Source of the DNA: a virus
DNA: 27,990 bases
Virus record (IMG/VR): IMGVR_UViG_3300033997_000555
Span: 1-27,990 of that record
Strand: one strand, 5' to 3'
The notes under the pieces were generated by a model that made no database searches, had not been told where the DNA came from, and worked only from the letters and a program-made list of their open reading frames with translations. The translations under genes were made by a program, and so were the position numbers. Shown here one piece after another: positions 1,413 through 19,160 of the stretch (position 1 is its first letter; every line of letters starts with the position of its first letter).

Positions 1413-3169
1413 CAATTAATCTCCAGAATAGTCCGGCCTGCGCTCTCGCCCGCCAGGGATTCATAGTCAAGCGAGTGCATGCACGCCCAAGCCAGATCCG
1501 CGTGGCTGGTTTCCTTCGCGCGGCCTGCGGTGTAGGTAACGGCGTTGCCGCTCGCGGTGATCGTCTTGCGGATCGCCATGAATGCGCCCGCGATATCGTT
1601 CATGCCGGCGTCAAACAAGAACCGGCCCGCGCGTATCAGCTCCTGCGCCTTCAGCACGAGCCGCGTTTTCACTTCGGGGCTGTAAATGATCTTGCGCACG
1701 CGCGGGAAGAACTTCTTCACCAGCTGATACACACCGTGGCCCAGGCCCGTGGCGTCAATGGCAATGTCCACGACGTTGTATTGCTGCATGAGTTGCTTTA
1801 TGCGCTCGGCCTGATCCTCGAATTCCTCGCCGCGCAGTTGGTAGCGTTCCAACACGCGGAACGCCCCTCCCGGCTTTGTCGGCAGGGCCATCACCACAAG
1901 GCCGGCCGAATCGCCCGTCAACGACGGGTCATAGCCAATCGACACGGGATGGTGGCCATAGCGCCGAAGCCCAAACCAATTCACATCCGTCCAATCCACC
2001 ATCGCATCGACCATGCAGGACTGCATGACCTTGAGCGGAAACACGCTGGCCGTGTCGTCGATGAACTCGCACATCAACAGATTGGCGAACTCATCGGGGC
2101 TGTATTCGAACCTCAACTCGTCAATATCGAAGAGGTTGCAGCCGCCGGCCTCCGCGTCAAGAATGGTGACGATCTGCCGCCACTTCCTGTCGGCTGCCAA
2201 CATGCCATCCTTTAGGGCCGCGTGGCTGACATCGATGGTCGCGCGTTCGGCCTTGGGGCGGCGCTTGTTGAACTGATCGCCGTTCCAGACCTTGAACGCT
2301 TCGTGCGACATGGCGGACGGCGTGCTGAAGTAGGTCTTTCGGTACTGCTTGTGCAGCGCCATCGCGCTGGCGACCTTGTTCAACTCCGTGAAGCGCGGCA
2401 CCCAGAAATACTCATCGAAGTAGAAATTGCCGTGGTGGCCCTGCGCCGTGCGTGCGTTCGTTCCCAGGAAGATCAGCTGCGCACCGTTGGGCAAAACGAT
2501 GGGATCGCCCTTCAAGTCCACGTCTGCATGCTCTCGCGCGAAGGCGATGATGTACTGCTTGAACACATGCGCCTGGGCCTTCGACGCGGACAGGAAGATC
2601 TGATTGCGGCCCGTGGCGATGGCGTCAAGCAATGCCTCGCGGGCGAAATACCACGTTGCGCCGATCTGGCGGCTCTTCAGGATCATGCGCGTGCGCTGAT
2701 CCGCGTTGCGATACCAGACCTTTTGATACCCGAAGATTTCGCGCTCGAAGGCCTGCAGCAGCTTGGCCGCCTGTTCCTCGCTGATCGCGTTGCGCTCTGG
2801 CTTCTTCTTCGGACTCGCGTTGCGTCGCTCGATGTTCGGATTTAGGTCCGACTCCTTTCCTCCGCTTTCATACCGGCGCACACGCGTTGTGCGTTCGAGC
2901 TGGCGTCCCAAAAGGTCAATTTCCTTGAAGTCGATGCCCTCCTTGCGCTCTTTCGCTATGAGGGTCGCCAGGCGCGTTTCCAGGCTGCTTTCGATCTTCT
3001 CCGCCGCCGACGCCTCGTCCCACTTGTCGCGGGTCTTCCAGCTGTGGACTGTAGTGCGCTTCTCGCCCAGTTCGCGCGCAATAGACGACACGCGCCACCC
3101 CATCCAGTAGAGGTGACGCGCGCGGCGGCGAGGGTCTAGCGGTTCGGTGATTTGCAACATGGTCGCCAT
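1412..3169 (-). CDS. P: Terminase large subunit, ATPase and nuclease (P2 gpP)
   Basis: This is the packaging motor and cos-cleaving subunit. It has 585 residues, close to P2 gpP. Residues about 18-50 form a helix-turn-helix typical of this family (ARELGEKRTTVHSW). The ATPase follows, with a non-classical Walker A KSRQIGAT at 165-172 and Walker B NFYFDE at 248-253. The C-terminal RNase H-like nuclease carries acidic residues in GYDPSLTGD (D414) and DIAIDATGLGHG (D472). The ATG at 3169 lies inside the proposed -10 box of the P promoter. If that promoter is right, transcription starts near 3161-3162 and the first usable ATG would be codon 4 (3160), giving a nearly leaderless message. Both starts preserve all domains. 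Confidence 0.93.
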   Translation of the reverse strand: MATMLQITEPLDPRRRARHLYWMGWRVSSIARELGEKRTTVHSWKTRDKWDEASAAEKIESSLETRLATLIAKERKEGIDFKEIDLLGRQLERTTRVRRYESGGKESDLNPNIERRNASPKKKPERNAISEEQAAKLLQAFEREIFGYQKVWYRNADQRTRMILKSRQIGATWYFAREALLDAIATGRNQIFLSASKAQAHVFKQYIIAFAREHADVDLKGDPIVLPNGAQLIFLGTNARTAQGHHGNFYFDEYFWVPRFTELNKVASAMALHKQYRKTYFSTPSAMSHEAFKVWNGDQFNKRRPKAERATIDVSHAALKDGMLAADRKWRQIVTILDAEAGGCNLFDIDELRFEYSPDEFANLLMCEFIDDTASVFPLKVMQSCMVDAMVDWTDVNWFGLRRYGHHPVSIGYDPSLTGDSAGLVVMALPTKPGGAFRVLERYQLRGEEFEDQAERIKQLMQQYNVVDIAIDATGLGHGVYQLVKKFFPRVRKIIYSPEVKTRLVLKAQELIRAGRFLFDAGMNDIAGAFMAIRKTITASGNAVTYTAGRAKETSHADLAWACMHSLDYESLAGESAGRTILEIN

Positions 3170-3228
3170 GCTGCCGGTAATCCTCGCGCGCGCGTGAGAG
3201 TCCCTGTTGTCGCTGCGCGATGCACAAC
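3161..3228 (-). promoter_or_regulatory. Late promoter P_P (Ogr-type)
   Basis: Reading the minus strand, a GTTGT-N13-ACAAC dyad (3228 down to 3206) is followed by a CG alternating tract and, exactly 34 bases after ACA, by CAGCAT (3173-3168). The predicted transcription start is about 3161-3162, putting the dyad centre near -55, as known for P2 late promoters activated by Ogr/Delta. The same dyad also serves the divergent O promoter. Confidence 0.7.
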
Positions 3229-9284: not shown

Positions 9285-9741
9285 CGAATTCCAAGCCATT
9301 GAGGAATGGGCGGCGGGCCTGCTGGCACGCCTTAAGCCCGCCGAACGCCGCCGCGTCAATCGCGCGGTTGCGGTCGAGCTGCGCCGCAACGAGAGCCAGC
9401 GCATCGCCTCGCAACAGGAGCCGGACGGCTCCCCTTTCTCGCCGCGACGGGCGCCCAAGAATCTACGCGGTAAGAAGGGCCAGGTGCGGCGCAAGATGTT
9501 CGCGCGGCTACGCACGGCGCAGCACATGCGCATCGACGTGACGGACACCGATGCGGCGGTCGGCTACACCGGCCGCGCTGCACGCATTGCCCTGGTACAC
9601 CAAGAGGGCCGCACCGACAGGCCAGAGCGCGGACAGGCGGCCGTACGTTATCCGCGCCGGCGGCTGCTGGGCTTCACCCAAACGTCACGCGAACGCGTAC
9701 TGGATACGCTCGCTCAACATCTGGCCGGCCGTAAGTTGTAG
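9277..9741 (+). CDS. S: Tail completion protein (P2 gpS)
   Basis: This 154-residue protein of the phage virion morphogenesis family (PF05069) contains PDGSPFSPRR, LRGKKGQVRRKMF and the C-terminal RYPRRRLLGFT characteristic of gpS. It is very Arg-rich. The ATG at 9277 overlaps R by eight bases and begins the family-like MSDEFQAIEEWAAGLL. Its stop codon TAG overlaps the TGT half-site of the V promoter dyad. Confidence 0.9.
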   Translation: MSDEFQAIEEWAAGLLARLKPAERRRVNRAVAVELRRNESQRIASQQEPDGSPFSPRRAPKNLRGKKGQVRRKMFARLRTAQHMRIDVTDTDAAVGYTGRAARIALVHQEGRTDRPERGQAAVRYPRRRLLGFTQTSRERVLDTLAQHLAGRKL

Positions 9742-9802
9742 GCGCGGCGGCGACAGCGCGCAATCCGTGCGCGCGCGAAGGCATCGCGGCACCATGGCCG
9801 CT
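9735..9802 (+). promoter_or_regulatory. Late promoter P_V (Ogr-type)
   Basis: TGT-N13-ACA occupies 9737-9755, with extended arms GTTGT and ACAGC. A GCGCGCGCG tract lies at 9769-9777 in place of a -35 box, and CACCAT at 9790-9795 follows 34 bases after ACA. The predicted start is about 9801-9802. The geometry is identical to the P, O and FI promoters. Confidence 0.7.
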
Positions 9803-10432
9803 ATGCCTGACGACATCGCCGAAATCCTCCGTCTCCTTTCCAACCTGATCCGCATCGGGACCGTGTTCGCCGTGGACCTGTCCGTCCGGCCTGCGAAGGT
9901 GCGCGTGTCCACTGGCGGCCTCGAAACGGACTGGCTGCAATGGCGCGAGGCGCGGGCGGGAACGACTACGACATGGAATCCGCCCACGACAGGCGAGCAG
10001 GTCATCATTCTCTGCCCTGGCGGGGATCCCGCTGCTGGCATCGTGCTGGCGGGCCTGAATTCCGAGGCGATCCCCGCGCCGTCCGACAGCCCGGACGAGC
10101 ATGTGACCGCGTACCCGGATGGCGCCCGCATCGTCTATGACCACAAAGCGGGCGCGCTGGTCGTCACGGGCGTCAAAACCCTCACGGCCGAGGTGTCGGA
10201 CACCAGCACCCTCAAATGCCCCGAGATCACGCTGGACGGCAATGTGACCGTGACTGGCCTGCTCACCTATATGGCTGGCATGAGCGGCCGGGATGGCAAG
10301 GGCAACACCACCGAGATCACCGGCAACATCACGCACAGAAGCGGCAATCTGTCGTCAAACGGCGTGGTGCTGCATACGCACCGCCACCGCACCCAGGGGC
10401 TGGATGCGCTCACTACGGAGCCGACCCAATGA
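9794..10432 (+). CDS. V: Baseplate spike protein (P2 gpV)
   Basis: This is the trimeric membrane-piercing spike at the tail tip. It has 212 residues (P2 gpV 211). The N-terminal OB-like domain contains TDWLQWREARAG and GEQVIILCPGGD. The middle forms a beta-helix. The C-terminal tip has HTHRHR near residues 198-203, the His-rich motif that binds iron in P2-type spikes. The open frame begins upstream inside S. The ATG at 9794 overlaps the proposed -10 box, so the second ATG at 9803 may be the true start of the promoter-derived message. The stop overlaps W. Confidence 0.93.
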   Translation: MAAMPDDIAEILRLLSNLIRIGTVFAVDLSVRPAKVRVSTGGLETDWLQWREARAGTTTTWNPPTTGEQVIILCPGGDPAAGIVLAGLNSEAIPAPSDSPDEHVTAYPDGARIVYDHKAGALVVTGVKTLTAEVSDTSTLKCPEITLDGNVTVTGLLTYMAGMSGRDGKGNTTEITGNITHRSGNLSSNGVVLHTHRHRTQGLDALTTEPTQ

Positions 10433-12326: not shown

Positions 12327-13678
12327 CTACCTATTTCGGAATCCTGACAAAGATCGGCGAGGCCAAGGAAGCCAACGCCAAGGCGCTGGGCGTCCCTGTG
12401 AACATCGCGGAGATGGAAGTTGGCGACGGCGGCGGCGTCCTGCCTGTCCCGAATCGTGAGCAAACATCGCTAGTCGGCTCCAAGCATCGCGCACCCATCA
12501 ATCGGATATTCGTTGACCCGAGCAATCCATCCTGGCTTGTAGTAGAGCAGGTCATCCCGGAGCAATTCGGCGGCTGGTGGGCGCGAGAACTGGGCTTGCG
12601 GGATGCGGACGGCGATCTTGTCGCGGTGTCAAATTGTCCGCCGACATACAAGCCTCAAATGACCGAGGGGTCGGCGCGTACGCAGGTAGTGCGCTTGGTG
12701 CTGCAAGTCTCCAGCACCAACAACTTCACGCTCAAGATCGATCCGTCTGTTGTGCTGGCCACCCGACAGTATGTTGACGATGGGTTGAGCGGGAAAGTGG
12801 ACAAGGATGCAGTCATCACTGTTCCCAGTGGAGGGACGGGACACAAGTACCTAACCCCAGGTAGTTACCTCATCGGCAACGGCGCCGCGCCCGTCTCGGC
12901 ACGAACCGCCGATGAAGTCCTCAACGATATTGGGGCAGCTCCACGAAATTCGCCAAGCTTCACAGGCATTCCTACAGGACCGACACCCGGGCAGGGGAAC
13001 AACTCAGACCAGTTCGCTACAACGGCCTTCGTTGCGCGATTTTTGAGCGCATACCCTCAAATGGTTTCCATCTCGGCTATCCCAACTTCAAACGTCGGCC
13101 CACTCATGATTGCCGAAGCAGCGGAAATGTGGCTCTGGACGCAGACCACGCATTTCACCGGCTATCGCTCGCCGCTGTGCGGCCGACCGCTGCTGGGGCA
13201 CACGCCCAACCCGTTCGTCAACGAAGTCGATGCCGTGGGAGGCCTGCTGTCGAAAGCAGCGTATCCCGCACTTTGGGGGTACGCGCAGGACGCAGGCCTA
13301 GTCGTCTCCCAAGCAGTCTGGACTGCAAACATCGGCGCGCACTACTTCGTCGACGTCAACTCGACGCAGTTCCGCGTGCCGGATCTGCGCGATATGCACT
13401 TCCGATTTACCGGCACCTCTGCAGATGGCGGACCACGAATCCTCGGCACGAAGCAAATGGACGCTGGTCAGCGGCTGATAGGCGTGCTGGGTGCACCGCA
13501 GGAGATCGGTATCAATGGCGTGTTTGCTGCGCTGCCGGGCACCGCATCGCAGTTTGCCGGAAGCCCGACAAACGCACAGGCGTTTTCTCAAGTCCAGCTC
13601 GACTCAGCACGTACAGCGCGGGTGTCGAGCGAGACGCGCGGCATCAACGTTGCATTTCATCCTCGCATTCACATCTAA
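12323..13678 (+). CDS. H: Tail fibre protein with tail-collar domain (gpH)
   Basis: This 451-residue protein binds the host surface. The N-terminal ~150 residues are the conserved P2-type fibre attachment domain (MTTYFGILTKIGEAKEA, then WWARELGLRDADGDLVAV). The middle (about 160-240) has short repeats of NDIGAAPRNSPSFTGIPTG type, found in many fibres. The C-terminal part has a tail-collar fold (VDVNSTQFRVPDLRD) and ends SSETRGINVAFHPRIHI. Base composition drops in the 3' two thirds compared with neighbours (for example runs of A/T at 13040-13110), a sign of module exchange in the host-range part. It is shorter than P2 gpH (669 aa). Confidence 0.9.
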   Translation: MTTYFGILTKIGEAKEANAKALGVPVNIAEMEVGDGGGVLPVPNREQTSLVGSKHRAPINRIFVDPSNPSWLVVEQVIPEQFGGWWARELGLRDADGDLVAVSNCPPTYKPQMTEGSARTQVVRLVLQVSSTNNFTLKIDPSVVLATRQYVDDGLSGKVDKDAVITVPSGGTGHKYLTPGSYLIGNGAAPVSARTADEVLNDIGAAPRNSPSFTGIPTGPTPGQGNNSDQFATTAFVARFLSAYPQMVSISAIPTSNVGPLMIAEAAEMWLWTQTTHFTGYRSPLCGRPLLGHTPNPFVNEVDAVGGLLSKAAYPALWGYAQDAGLVVSQAVWTANIGAHYFVDVNSTQFRVPDLRDMHFRFTGTSADGGPRILGTKQMDAGQRLIGVLGAPQEIGINGVFAALPGTASQFAGSPTNAQAFSQVQLDSARTARVSSETRGINVAFHPRIHI

Positions 13679-13689
13679 GGACGCATCGC

Positions 13690-14031
13690 ATGCACCACAT
13701 CATCGTCTATCAGACCGACCCGAGCGGCATTTTCTTGCATGAAATCACGGCGCATGAATTCGGCCTGGAGGAAGGAACCTTCAATATTCCAAACGGCGCA
13801 TACACGGACGCACCACCAAAGCCCAAAGCTGGCCGCTGGCCGCTTCGAGTCGATGGCGCATGGGTCCTTGTTGAAGACTTCCGCGCCGTGCCGCTATGGG
13901 TCACGGACACGGCTGCCCGATACGTCATCGGATCCACACATGAAACCGCTACCGGCCCCATGCAGTATCCTGGCTGGGGCCCTCTGCCTGCGTGGCTGAC
14001 GATACACCGGCCAGAACCCTTAGATCAGTAA
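13690..14031 (+). CDS. Putative tail fibre assembly protein (gpG position)
   Basis: This 113-residue protein lies directly after the fibre gene, where P2 has chaperone G. It starts MHHIIVYQTDPSGIF and contains a Pro/Lys segment (PPKPKAGRWPLR) followed by DGAWVLVEDFRAVPLW, a pattern common in fibre-assembly proteins. The sequence does not clearly match P2 gpG, so the assignment rests mainly on position and this weak pattern. The ATG at 13690 is 11 bases after the H stop; the frame is open far upstream inside H, which is a shadow. Confidence 0.65.
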   Translation: MHHIIVYQTDPSGIFLHEITAHEFGLEEGTFNIPNGAYTDAPPKPKAGRWPLRVDGAWVLVEDFRAVPLWVTDTAARYVIGSTHETATGPMQYPGWGPLPAWLTIHRPEPLDQ

Positions 14032-14057
14032 GTAGTGCAGCCACAAACATCGATTCA

Positions 14058-14125
14058 TTTGTAATACGCCCAGCCACAAAGCGCGCTTCGTGCGCGCGCG
14101 AGGCCAAGCCCTCAGAATTTTAGCG
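14058..14125 (+). promoter_or_regulatory. Late promoter P_F (Ogr-type)
   Basis: TTTGT-N13-ACAAA occupies 14058-14080. A GCGCGCGCG tract lies at 14092-14100, and CAGAAT at 14113-14118 follows 34 bases after ACA. The predicted start is about 14124-14125, 53 bases before the sheath ATG. The -10 box overlaps the 5' arm of the terminator stem described next. Confidence 0.72.
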
Positions 14126-14176
14126 ATCCCCGCCCGAGGTAGAGCGGGATTCAGCTCAACTCTCTGAGGGCTTTTT
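14106..14176 (+). terminator. Long-loop terminator overlapping the F promoter
   Basis: A perfect 11-bp inverted repeat (14106-14116 with 14163-14173) encloses a 46-base loop and is followed by a T run at 14172-14176. Inside the loop a smaller bulged hairpin forms between 14126-14133 and 14144-14150. RNA coming from the V-fibre operon can form the outer stem and terminate. RNA starting at P_F lacks the 5' arm. The 3' arm contains GAGGG (14166-14170), the only Shine-Dalgarno-like sequence for the sheath gene, so the stem would also hide that site. Confidence 0.7.
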
Positions 14177-14177
14177 C

Positions 14178-15359
14178 ATGGCACTTGATCAATACCATCA
14201 CGGCGTCCGGGTTGTCGAAACCGACGACGGCACCCGGCCGATCCGCACTGTATCCACCGCTATTGTCGGCTTCGTGGCCACCGCCGAAGACGCTGACCCC
14301 ATCAGCTTTCCGCTCAATACCCCGGTCTTGGCCACCAACATTGCCGCCGCCGCCGGCAAGGCCGGCACCAAGGGAACGCTCGCGCGTACCCTGCAGGCCA
14401 TCGGCGCACAGACCAATCCCGCCACCATCATCGTGCGCGTGGCCGAGGGCGCCACGCCGGCGGAAACCACGTCCAACGTCATCGGCGGCACCGACGCCAG
14501 CGGGCGCTATACCGGCATGCGCGCACTGCTCGCCGCCCAGAACACCGGGCCGAAGCTGAAACCTCGGATCCTGGGTGCTCCTGGCCTGGAAAATACGGCC
14601 GTCGTCGCGGCGATGGCCGAGATCGCGCAGAAGTTGCGCGGCTTTGCCTACGCGAGCATTCCCGATTGCCCGACCAAAGAAGAGGCCGCTGCGTTTCGCG
14701 AGGGGCTGGGACAGCGGGAAATGATGCTGATCTGGCCCGACTTCCTGGGCTGGGATACCCGTACCAATAAGGAGGGCATCATTGCCGCGTCTGCCACGGC
14801 CCTGGGCCTGCGCGCCAAGCTGGACAAGGAAGTGGGCTGGCACAAAACGCTGTCCAACGTCGTCGTCAACGGCGCCACCGGCATTAGTCGGGATGTCTTC
14901 TGGGATCTGCAAGACCCTGACACGGACGCCGGCTATCTGAACGCCAAGGATGTCACCACGTTGATCAATCGCACGGGCTACCGCTTCTGGGGTTCGCGTA
15001 CCTGCGCAGGACCGCAAAGCCTGTTCCCGTTCGAGAACTACACGCGTACCGCCCAGATCATCGCCGACACGATGGCCGAGGCGCATATGTGGAGCGTCGA
15101 TGCGCCGCTGAATCCTTCGTTGGCGCGCGACATTATTGAAGGCATCAATTCGAAATTCCGCAGCCTCAAGGCCAACGGCTACATCATCGACGGCAGCGCT
15201 TGGTACGACGAAGCGCCGAACACGAAGGAAACGCTCAAGGCCGGGCAGCTCACCATCGACTACGACTACACGCCGGTTCCCCCGCTCGAAAACCTGGGAT
15301 TCCGTCAACGCATCACGGATCGCTATCTGGCTGACTTCGCCCAGCGTATCGGCGCCTGA
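14178..15359 (+). CDS. FI: Tail sheath protein (P2 gpFI)
   Basis: This is the contractile sheath subunit, 393 residues (P2 gpFI 396). It begins YHHGVRVVETDDGTRPI, the family signature of the N-terminal arm. The C-terminal domain, which is conserved in all contractile sheaths, includes GYRFWGSRTC and ends FRQRITDRYLADFAQRIGA. It is the first gene of the F operon. The start codon comes directly after the terminator-like T run, with GAGGG seven bases upstream. Confidence 0.96.
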   Translation: MALDQYHHGVRVVETDDGTRPIRTVSTAIVGFVATAEDADPISFPLNTPVLATNIAAAAGKAGTKGTLARTLQAIGAQTNPATIIVRVAEGATPAETTSNVIGGTDASGRYTGMRALLAAQNTGPKLKPRILGAPGLENTAVVAAMAEIAQKLRGFAYASIPDCPTKEEAAAFREGLGQREMMLIWPDFLGWDTRTNKEGIIAASATALGLRAKLDKEVGWHKTLSNVVVNGATGISRDVFWDLQDPDTDAGYLNAKDVTTLINRTGYRFWGSRTCAGPQSLFPFENYTRTAQIIADTMAEAHMWSVDAPLNPSLARDIIEGINSKFRSLKANGYIIDGSAWYDEAPNTKETLKAGQLTIDYDYTPVPPLENLGFRQRITDRYLADFAQRIGA

Positions 15360-16445: not shown

Positions 16446-19160
16446 ATGGACAAGGCGCTACAGCTGCGTGTCATCGCTGCCATACAGGACAAACTATCGG
16501 GGCCGCTGAACAAGATCAAGGGATCGTCCGCAGCGTCCGCCCAGGGCGTTGCCGACCTGCGCAGCAAGCTCAAGGCGCTGGACACCGCCCAGCGCGAAGT
16601 CGGCAGGTTCCGCGAGATCTCCCGAGGCCTGCAAACCACGCGCGCCGACCTGGCGGCCGCGCAGCAGCGCGTGGCCGGTCTGGCGCAGCAGATGCAGGCG
16701 ACAGCCTCGCCCACGCGAGCCATGACGCGCGAGTTTGATAGGGCGGTACGCGCGGCCCAGCAGCTCAAGGAAAAACACGGTCAACAATCCATGGAGCTGC
16801 AGCGCTTACGCGAGAACTTGGGGCGCGCTGGCATCTCCACGTCGAATCTGGCGCGCGATGAGCGCGGGCTGCGCCAACGCATCGATCAGACATCCCAGGC
16901 GCTGGATAGGCAAACCGCCAAGCTGCAGGCCGCTGCGAGGCATCAGCAGCGTTTGGCCGCCGCGAAAGAGCGCTACACGTCCGGGCGTGCGGCCGTGGGC
17001 GCAGCCGCCGGCACCGGCGCGGCAGCGCTCGCCGCCGGCGGTGGCATGCTGTACGCCGAGAGTAAGTTCGTCATGCCTGGGATTGATTTCGACGCCAGCA
17101 TGAGCAAGGTTCAGGCGCTGGCCCGACTGGAGAAAACCAGCGAAGAAATGAAGGCCCTGCGCAAGCAGGCCCGCGACCTGGGCGCGGAAACCATGTTCTC
17201 CGCTGGGCAGGCCGCCGACGCGCAAGGCTTTCTCGCCATGGCGGGTTTCACACCGAAGGCGATACTTGCCGCCATGCCCGGCATGCTGTCGCTGGCAAAA
17301 GCCGGCGATACCGACCTTGCGCAAACGGCGGATATCGGCTCCAACATCTTGACCGGGTTCAAGCTTCCGGCCGATCAGATGGGCCGCGTGGGCGATGTGC
17401 TGACGGGCGCATTCACCCGCTCGAACACCAGCCTTTACATGCTGGGCGAAACGATGAAGTACGTGGCCCCTGTGGCCGCCGGCCTGGGCGTGGACATCGA
17501 GACGGCGGCCGCCATGGCGGGCAAGCTGGGCGATGCGGGTATCCAGGGCAGCATGGCCGGCACGGCGATGCGTGCGATTCTCGGGCGCCTTGCCGCGCCT
17601 CCCAAGGCTGCGGCGGACGCGTTGGCGGAGCTGGGCGTCAAGACGAAGGACGCGAAAGGCAACCTGCGCGATCTGCCCGCCATCCTGGCTGAGATCGACA
17701 AGAAAACCCAAAAGATGGGGTCGGCGCAGCGCGCCGGCTTCTTCAAGCATATTGCCGGCGAAGAAGCCTTCAGCGCCCTGCAGGTGCTGACCGACCAGGC
17801 CGGCCAGGGTGAATTGCAGAAATTCGTCGGGACGCTAAAGACCAACGCAGGCGACGCCGACAAGACCGCAGGCACGATGGCCGACAACATGCGCGGCTCG
17901 CTGGACGAGCTTTCCAGCGCTTGGGAAGACCTGGGCATTCAGATCTACGAGCAACACGACGGCGCTTTGCGCAAAATGGTCGTCCGCTTGGCAGATCTCA
18001 TCGGCAGCGTGAAAAACTGGGCAGCGGCCAACCCTGAGCTTGCCAGCACCCTCACCGCGATAGCGGGCGGCCTGGCGGTGCTGATCGCGGGCTTTGGCGC
18101 GCTCACGCTGGCGCTGGCCAGCATCCTGGGACCGTTCATCATCATCCGCTACGGCCTGTCGCTGATGGGCATACAGTCGGGCAGCCTGTTGGGCCTGCTG
18201 GCCAACCTCGTACGCAATGGCTTTGGCATGCTGGGCAAGGCCATCTTGTTCGTTGGTCGCCTTTTTCTGGCCAACCCCATCGGCTTGGCCGTCACCGCCA
18301 TCGGCTTGGCGGCCTATGCCATCTATCGCTATTGGGAGCCGATCAGCGGCTTTTTCAGCGGGTTATGGTCGCGTATCACCACCGCCTTTAATTCGGCCGT
18401 GCAATGGCTTTCCGGGCTTCTGGCGGGCTGGGATCCGCTGTCGGTTCTGGGCGCTGCCTGGGGTGCGGTCTCGGGATTCTTTGGGCAGATCTGGCAATCT
18501 GTCACGCAGGTCTTTGACGGCGGCCTGGCCGGCGTCGGTGCGATGCTGCTGAACTGGTCCCCGCTGGGCCTGCTGTACCAGCCGATAGCCGCCGCGCTGG
18601 CGTCCCTGGGCGTGTCGCTGCCGGGCAATTTCTCCGAGTTCGGCTCCATGCTGGTGCAAGGCCTTATCAACGGGATATCCAGCATGGCCGGCGCGCTGAA
18701 AGAATCCATTTCCAACATGGGCAGCGGCGTGATCGGCTGGTTCAAGGAAAAGCTGGGTATTCACTCGCCAAGCCGGGTCTTTGCGGACATGGGCGGGTTC
18801 GTGTCTGAGGGCGCGGCCGTCGGCATCAAAGCCCAGCAGCCTGAGGCCATGAAGGCCGCTCAGGCGCTGGCCGCATCCGTTGCGCTAAGCGGCGCCATGC
18901 TGGCCCCCGGCGCACTCGCTGCACCAGCGGGCATCGACACCCAACAAGCGGCGGCCCGCTTCGACATGCGCACGCCCATGGCCACCGCGCCGGCCAGCGC
19001 ACCGCGCCAGATCACCGTCCAGGGCGACACCATCAACATCACCATCCAGGGCGCGGGGATGAGCCAAATGGACCTGCAGCGCGCGGTTGAAACTGCCTTG
19101 CGCCGCGTCCAGGCGGACAAGGATGCGCGCATCCGCTCCGCCTATATCGACCGAGACTAG
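16446..19160 (+). CDS. T: Tape measure protein (P2 gpT)
   Basis: This 904-residue protein sets tail length and leaves the tail during DNA injection (P2 gpT 815). Residues 1-190 are predicted coiled coil (QLRVIAAIQDKLSGPLNKIKG, then many Ala/Gln/Arg heptads). The TP901-type core follows at about 210-510 (FDASMSKVQALARL, ETMFSAGQAADAQGFLAMAGF). Two hydrophobic segments lie at about 535-575 and 598-630. A Trp/Gly/Leu-rich repeat-like region with WSPLGL motifs follows. The conserved GWFKEKLGIHSPSRVF comes near residue 765. The last ~120 residues are Ala-rich and disordered-looking. Confidence 0.94.
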   Translation: MDKALQLRVIAAIQDKLSGPLNKIKGSSAASAQGVADLRSKLKALDTAQREVGRFREISRGLQTTRADLAAAQQRVAGLAQQMQATASPTRAMTREFDRAVRAAQQLKEKHGQQSMELQRLRENLGRAGISTSNLARDERGLRQRIDQTSQALDRQTAKLQAAARHQQRLAAAKERYTSGRAAVGAAAGTGAAALAAGGGMLYAESKFVMPGIDFDASMSKVQALARLEKTSEEMKALRKQARDLGAETMFSAGQAADAQGFLAMAGFTPKAILAAMPGMLSLAKAGDTDLAQTADIGSNILTGFKLPADQMGRVGDVLTGAFTRSNTSLYMLGETMKYVAPVAAGLGVDIETAAAMAGKLGDAGIQGSMAGTAMRAILGRLAAPPKAAADALAELGVKTKDAKGNLRDLPAILAEIDKKTQKMGSAQRAGFFKHIAGEEAFSALQVLTDQAGQGELQKFVGTLKTNAGDADKTAGTMADNMRGSLDELSSAWEDLGIQIYEQHDGALRKMVVRLADLIGSVKNWAAANPELASTLTAIAGGLAVLIAGFGALTLALASILGPFIIIRYGLSLMGIQSGSLLGLLANLVRNGFGMLGKAILFVGRLFLANPIGLAVTAIGLAAYAIYRYWEPISGFFSGLWSRITTAFNSAVQWLSGLLAGWDPLSVLGAAWGAVSGFFGQIWQSVTQVFDGGLAGVGAMLLNWSPLGLLYQPIAAALASLGVSLPGNFSEFGSMLVQGLINGISSMAGALKESISNMGSGVIGWFKEKLGIHSPSRVFADMGGFVSEGAAVGIKAQQPEAMKAAQALAASVALSGAMLAPGALAAPAGIDTQQAAARFDMRTPMATAPASAPRQITVQGDTINITIQGAGMSQMDLQRAVETALRRVQADKDARIRSAYIDRD

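Follow-up and report, generated by a model that had tools for sequence, protein, structure and literature searches.

The window, by which is meant the whole stretch of 27,990 nucleotides analysed, is part of a P2-like phage with the P2 gene order, and its closest relatives are Achromobacter and Bordetella prophages and viral contigs. The tail sheath gene (FI), first in the F operon, occupies positions 14178–15359 of the plus strand with its ATG at 14178 (PHROG 23 tail sheath, E 7e-132). Ahead of it on the same strand, at 13129–14031, lies a frame matching tail-fibre assembly families (PHROG 105, E 1e-7), the true start of which may fall within the open reading frame. This frame is the end of the preceding, V–G type operon, which would be the source of read-through RNA. 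A fold-back element is located between the two. The intervening plus-strand sequence opens with an Ogr/Delta-type activator site, TGT-N13-ACA, read directly at 14060–14078 and centred some 55 nt before the predicted transcription start; it thus has the form of a P2-type Ogr/Delta late promoter, TGT-N12/13-ACA centred at about −55. The −10 hexamer of the late promoter PF, CAGAAT (14113–14118), follows the activator site by 34 nt; motif and spacing recur in relatives, and the GenBank annotation of P2 pF and 186 pJ gives the same motif and spacing. An offset rule applied from the activator site predicts an Ogr-type start at 14125 (to about ±2 nt). A TCGTGCGCGCGCGA block at 14088–14101 is conserved among Alcaligenaceae relatives and occurs a second time at the baseplate promoter PV (9765–9778); a (C/T)CGTGCGCGCGCGA block is found at both of these late promoters, PV and PF, and in most of the Alcaligenaceae relatives between activator site and −10.

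The 5′ arm of the fold-back, AAGCCCTCAGA (14106–14116), overlaps the −10 box and lies entirely upstream of the predicted start. The 3′ arm, TCTGAGGGCTT (14163–14173), contains GAGGG (14166–14170), the sole Shine-Dalgarno sequence of the sheath gene. The arms are 46 nt apart and 100% complementary over 11 bp. An inner hairpin, ATCCCCGC/GCGGGAT (14126–14150), is present in both the read-through and the own-promoter RNA and does not include the Shine-Dalgarno, and a run of five Ts (14172–14176), terminator-like in the clade of the window only, follows the stem. The first-pass annotation had described the 11-bp repeat, the T-run, CAGAAT and GAGGG, and each was found exactly where it had been placed. 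A perfect repeat of 11 bp was reached in 1 of 400 dinucleotide shuffles of 14032–14177 (mean 6.1), and the predicted fold of 14100–14180, at −35.7 kcal/mol against −22.6 kcal/mol in shuffles (z −3.6), exceeds all shuffles. No Rfam family matched in a search of the window.

It had further been proposed that RNA from the sheath promoter lacks the 5′ arm, and that folding of the longer RNA hides the Shine-Dalgarno. Both proposals agree with the predicted start and with folding of the leader with and without the 5′ arm. The predicted cost of opening the ribosome-binding site rises from 7.8 kcal/mol in the own-promoter RNA to 19.8 kcal/mol in the read-through RNA, in which GAGGG is 0% unpaired. The own-promoter RNA has a weaker alternative fold, which partly covers the GGG of the Shine-Dalgarno.

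Annotated start sites are available for the homologous promoters of P2 and 186. In GenBank the starts are given at 17626–17628 for P2 pF (NC_001895) and at 14159 for 186 pJ (U32222), and they fall inside 5′ arms, CACTCACC and CACTCGCC, which pair with GGaTGAGTG across the start codon, so that the fold-back covers GGATGAGTG, the start of the sheath gene. These start sites were consulted only after the pattern had been seen; the two records give the activator site and the start site, and no hairpin at the sheath start. P2 and 186 resemble the window in having a homologous promoter and gene and in the fold-back that covers the start of the sheath gene; their start sites lie within its 5′ arm. They differ in their shorter arms, which take in the start codon, and in having no T-run. 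With upstream sequence included, the opening cost in P2 goes from 5.9 to 13.2 kcal/mol.

Were transcription to begin further upstream, the hairpin would be ordinary 5′-UTR structure of the sheath mRNA, either an operator bound by a protein or a stabiliser of the 5′ end. This is very unlikely. Starts are annotated for P2 and 186 only and predicted elsewhere, which leaves some room for such a reading, but both annotated starts lie inside the 5′ arm, and the −10 hexamer is within the arm or adjoins it. The offset rule reproduces P2 pF (17626) exactly and 186 pJ within 2 nt, and comes within 1 nt for P2 pV, for which the annotated start is the A of the V start codon (10308). Applied family-wide, it yields leaderless P and V transcripts, as described below.

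Viral contigs with the exact 5′ arm and other Achromobacter-type loci retain the stem in varied form. The arm pair is GCCCTCAGA/TCTGAGGGC in the window and ACCCTCAGA/TCTGAGGGT in L200, where a G-C pair has become A-U; it is TTTCAGA/TCTGAAG in L206, ACCTTC/GAGGGT in L202 as against GCCCTC/GAGGGC in L173, GCCTGTGCAGTG/CACTGCACAGGC in Pseudomonas and CATAGAAGCT/AGCTTCTATG in Providencia. The expectation that pairing would persist in close relatives was borne out in part: the closest relatives of the window keep 8–11 pairs, but pairing is weak or absent in some Achromobacter relatives (L199/L204, L198), and L174 and L170 are among the close Achromobacter/Bordetella relatives without good pairing.

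These comparisons bear on the main idea of the first-pass annotation, namely that hairpin and T-run form an intrinsic terminator of the baseplate/fibre operon with the late promoter inside it. In the window the T5 run comes straight after the 3′ arm, and the stretch from the fibre-assembly frame to the promoter showed no ordinary terminator; since both hold, some termination in the window phage is possible. A terminator pattern scan with a loop limit of 8 did not list the stem with its T5. Other lineages do overlay the promoter with terminators, which lie around the activator site in Bordetella L170 and L083 and between the activator site and the −10 in Mannheimia phage 1127AP1 (L290). The T-run, however, is found in the clade of the window only and is decaying there (GGGCTTTTTC, GGGCATTTTC, GAGGGCTTTCC, GAGGGTTCCCC) while the pairing persists, so that among relatives it is not conserved with the stem. 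Furthermore, the apical part of the structure is a branched region of 46 nt, and in the family-wide signal described below it is the Shine-Dalgarno and start codon that are paired, often without a T-run. In 10 of 45 clusters an ordinary terminator lies upstream of the start instead. Termination as a conserved function was therefore rejected, and a terminator is an unlikely account of the element as a whole.

Upstream of the CCGTGCGCGCGCG block the sequences of the relatives are unrelated, and homology begins sharply at the CGTGCGCGCGCG block, at about 14088 in the window. The fibre module therefore seems to have been exchanged at this border, with the element from promoter to ATG apparently travelling with the sheath gene. 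At several other loci, those of Smp131 (L295), FLC5 (L296), KS14 (L209) and L035, the sheath gene stands close behind the previous gene and has no confident activator site. Such loci are useful natural controls for the fold-back.

The pattern was first seen by reading sheath upstream regions side by side, where the pairing keeps its position in sequences that otherwise differ considerably. For a family-wide analysis 276 such regions were gathered, with starts predicted from the activator site, and the promoter segment (−14 to +2) of each phage was paired with the sheath start (−20 to +11) of its own genome or of other phages. Own pairs were consistently the stronger: −11.6 versus −8.2 kcal/mol for 45 clusters (z −9.0), −12.7 versus −8.4 kcal/mol for 73 clusters (z −12.6) and −11.9 versus −8.2 kcal/mol for 32 clusters (z −8.2), the difference being equalled in 0 of 2000 permutations each time. 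Swaps matched for GC content gave z −8.7. The excess spans about −22 to +4 relative to the start. In sliding windows it was zero between −100 and −30 and again within the transcribed leader, and it peaked at −10 to +4 (z −8.5). With 9-nt windows z was −6.5 at −8 to 0 and +0.8 at 0 to +8, and the excess therefore ends at the start site. The second gene of the operon, FII, showed almost no excess at equal distances (z −1.9), and the capsid promoter PO, which has an ordinary leader, gave −8.5 versus −7.5 kcal/mol in 34 clusters (z −2.7), an effect of 1 kcal/mol. Taken with within-sequence shuffles, the GC-matched swaps, sliding windows and FII control rule out an artefact of composition.

The windows for the swap test were picked after the sequences had been inspected, and the controls were designed to guard against this. 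It might be argued that the complementarity of the −10 region with the Shine-Dalgarno arose by chance and was picked out by eye, the more so as a −10 hexamer with CAT at its end is complementary to ATG. Yet the swaps retain such shared motifs and still give z of about −8 to −9 with 0 of 2000 permutations, the signal is position-specific, and the P2 and 186 starts were looked up only afterwards; chance can hardly be entertained. A function of the inverted repeat as DNA, whether as a protein-binding dyad or a promoter cruciform with the ribosome-binding-site pairing as a by-product, is improbable too, if not to the same degree. A mismatch test intended to separate RNA pairing from a DNA-level repeat gave RNA no advantage (G·U 4, A·C 6; neither favoured). 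Against a DNA function, the arms differ wholly in sequence between lineages and are thus ill-suited to a single DNA-binding protein, the 3′ arm stays with the Shine-Dalgarno or start codon as the distance from promoter to gene varies from about 20 to 59 nt, and the excess stops at +1.

The swap test indicates that pairing is conserved through sequence change across relatives, and a second measure qualifies its extent. When whole leaders were folded with native or with foreign upstream sequence, a rise of 3 kcal/mol or more in the cost of opening the ribosome-binding site was seen in 51% of clusters with native sequence, as against 2% with foreign (p = 9e-6). A clear rise is lacking in about half of the clusters, where the pairing is absent or weak by this measure.

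The geometry of promoter and sheath start, a family-wide complementarity that is specific to position, and the location of the annotated starts of P2 and 186 within the 5′ arm are in our judgement probably best explained by a translational lock on read-through RNA at the sheath gene. The late promoter of the F operon would be sited so that its −10 to +1 region complements the sheath gene at its ribosome-binding site and start. Transcripts entering from the baseplate/fibre operon upstream would carry both arms and fold, and the Shine-Dalgarno, in many cases with the start codon, would be buried. Ogr-activated RNA from PF would begin inside or after the 5′ arm, form no such hairpin and be translated, and synthesis of the sheath, and of the coupled tube protein, would then follow its own promoter only. 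The complementarity has a selection-like character; silencing itself we infer, and it supposes that a useful amount of read-through RNA is made and that the fold blocks its translation. The idea of translational silencing had been put forward for the window alone, and as judged by the swap test its geometry would generalise across P2-like phages. The lock would explain in a simple way how the amounts of sheath and tube could be independent of leaky termination of the baseplate operon.

The other late promoters offer a parallel of a different kind. At PP the predicted start coincides with the start codon of the terminase gene P, or precedes it by 1 nt, in 93 of 102 P2-like loci (L297–L376, L463–L491), and the P mRNA is probably leaderless. 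In the window PP lies at 3157–3226 on the minus strand, where the likely start of P is the ATG at 3160 and not that at 3169. At PV, 29 of 33 loci (L493–L522; window 9737–9803) have a predicted start no more than 2 nt from the start codon of V; V mRNAs would be leaderless, extending the P2 pV case to the family. PP had been considered as a control with no upstream operon, and proved mostly unusable because of the leaderless state of 93 of its 102 loci. Fold-backs are present at those PP loci which have leaders, P2 included (6 clusters, z −2.6). At P2 pP (L207, 2993–3028, minus strand) an 11-bp fold-back, GCCTTGCCGTG/CACGGCGAGGT, has the annotated start at the end of its 5′ arm. This counts against the lock, as P2 pP has the fold-back though P has no late operon upstream that would read into it. 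A scan with the P2 terminase gave near-identical copies only.

Translation starts poorly at an internal AUG that has no Shine-Dalgarno, and a leaderless start therefore ties translation to the gene's own promoter. It is attractive to consider, and perhaps somewhat less than an even call, that the first genes of several late operons are guarded from foreign RNA, P and V by being leaderless and FI by its split hairpin. Late operons would then be separated in translation as well as in transcription. That every late first gene is guarded against translation from foreign RNA is a conjecture.

P2 and 186 are classic model phages whose late promoters were mapped decades ago. A search of the open-access literature, outside which most subscription papers lie, found no description of a hairpin at the sheath start of P2-like phages. 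That the promoter should complement the ribosome-binding site family-wide and at an exact position points to insulation of late operons at the level of translation, and the swap test is a general means of finding such locks in other phages.

Similar designs are known elsewhere. The transposase gene of IS10 is protected against outside transcription by a fold-back. There, as in the lock proposed here, read-through RNA folds over the ribosome-binding site and RNA from the own promoter is without the outer arm; IS10 differs in being a transposon, with host promoters and another gene. The split hairpins of T4 have their 5′ strand upstream of the start, a position which is annotated in P2 and 186 and predicted in the window and the other phages, and their 3′ strand over the Shine-Dalgarno or start codon, as was also found here. 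Read-through RNA of T4 gene e folds over its ribosome-binding site and lysozyme synthesis is 100-fold lower, whilst the late RNA lacks the 5′ strand (PMC3014915); hairpins of like design accompany the late promoters of I-TevI, segB and Aeh1 mobE (PMC2988022). In all of these, T4 e, soc, 49, I-TevI/segB and Aeh1 mobE, late RNA is without the 5′ strand (PMC3014915, PMC2988022), whose presence in longer RNA from upstream conceals the Shine-Dalgarno or start codon; the same is proposed for the P2-like phages. The T4 cases involve gp55 sigma late promoters, read-through of early or middle transcription and scattered single genes. By contrast, the P2-like lock would act at an Ogr/Delta-activated sigma-70 promoter, on late-to-late read-through and on the sheath gene, and its pairing recurs in much of a phage family although the arm sequences are unrelated.
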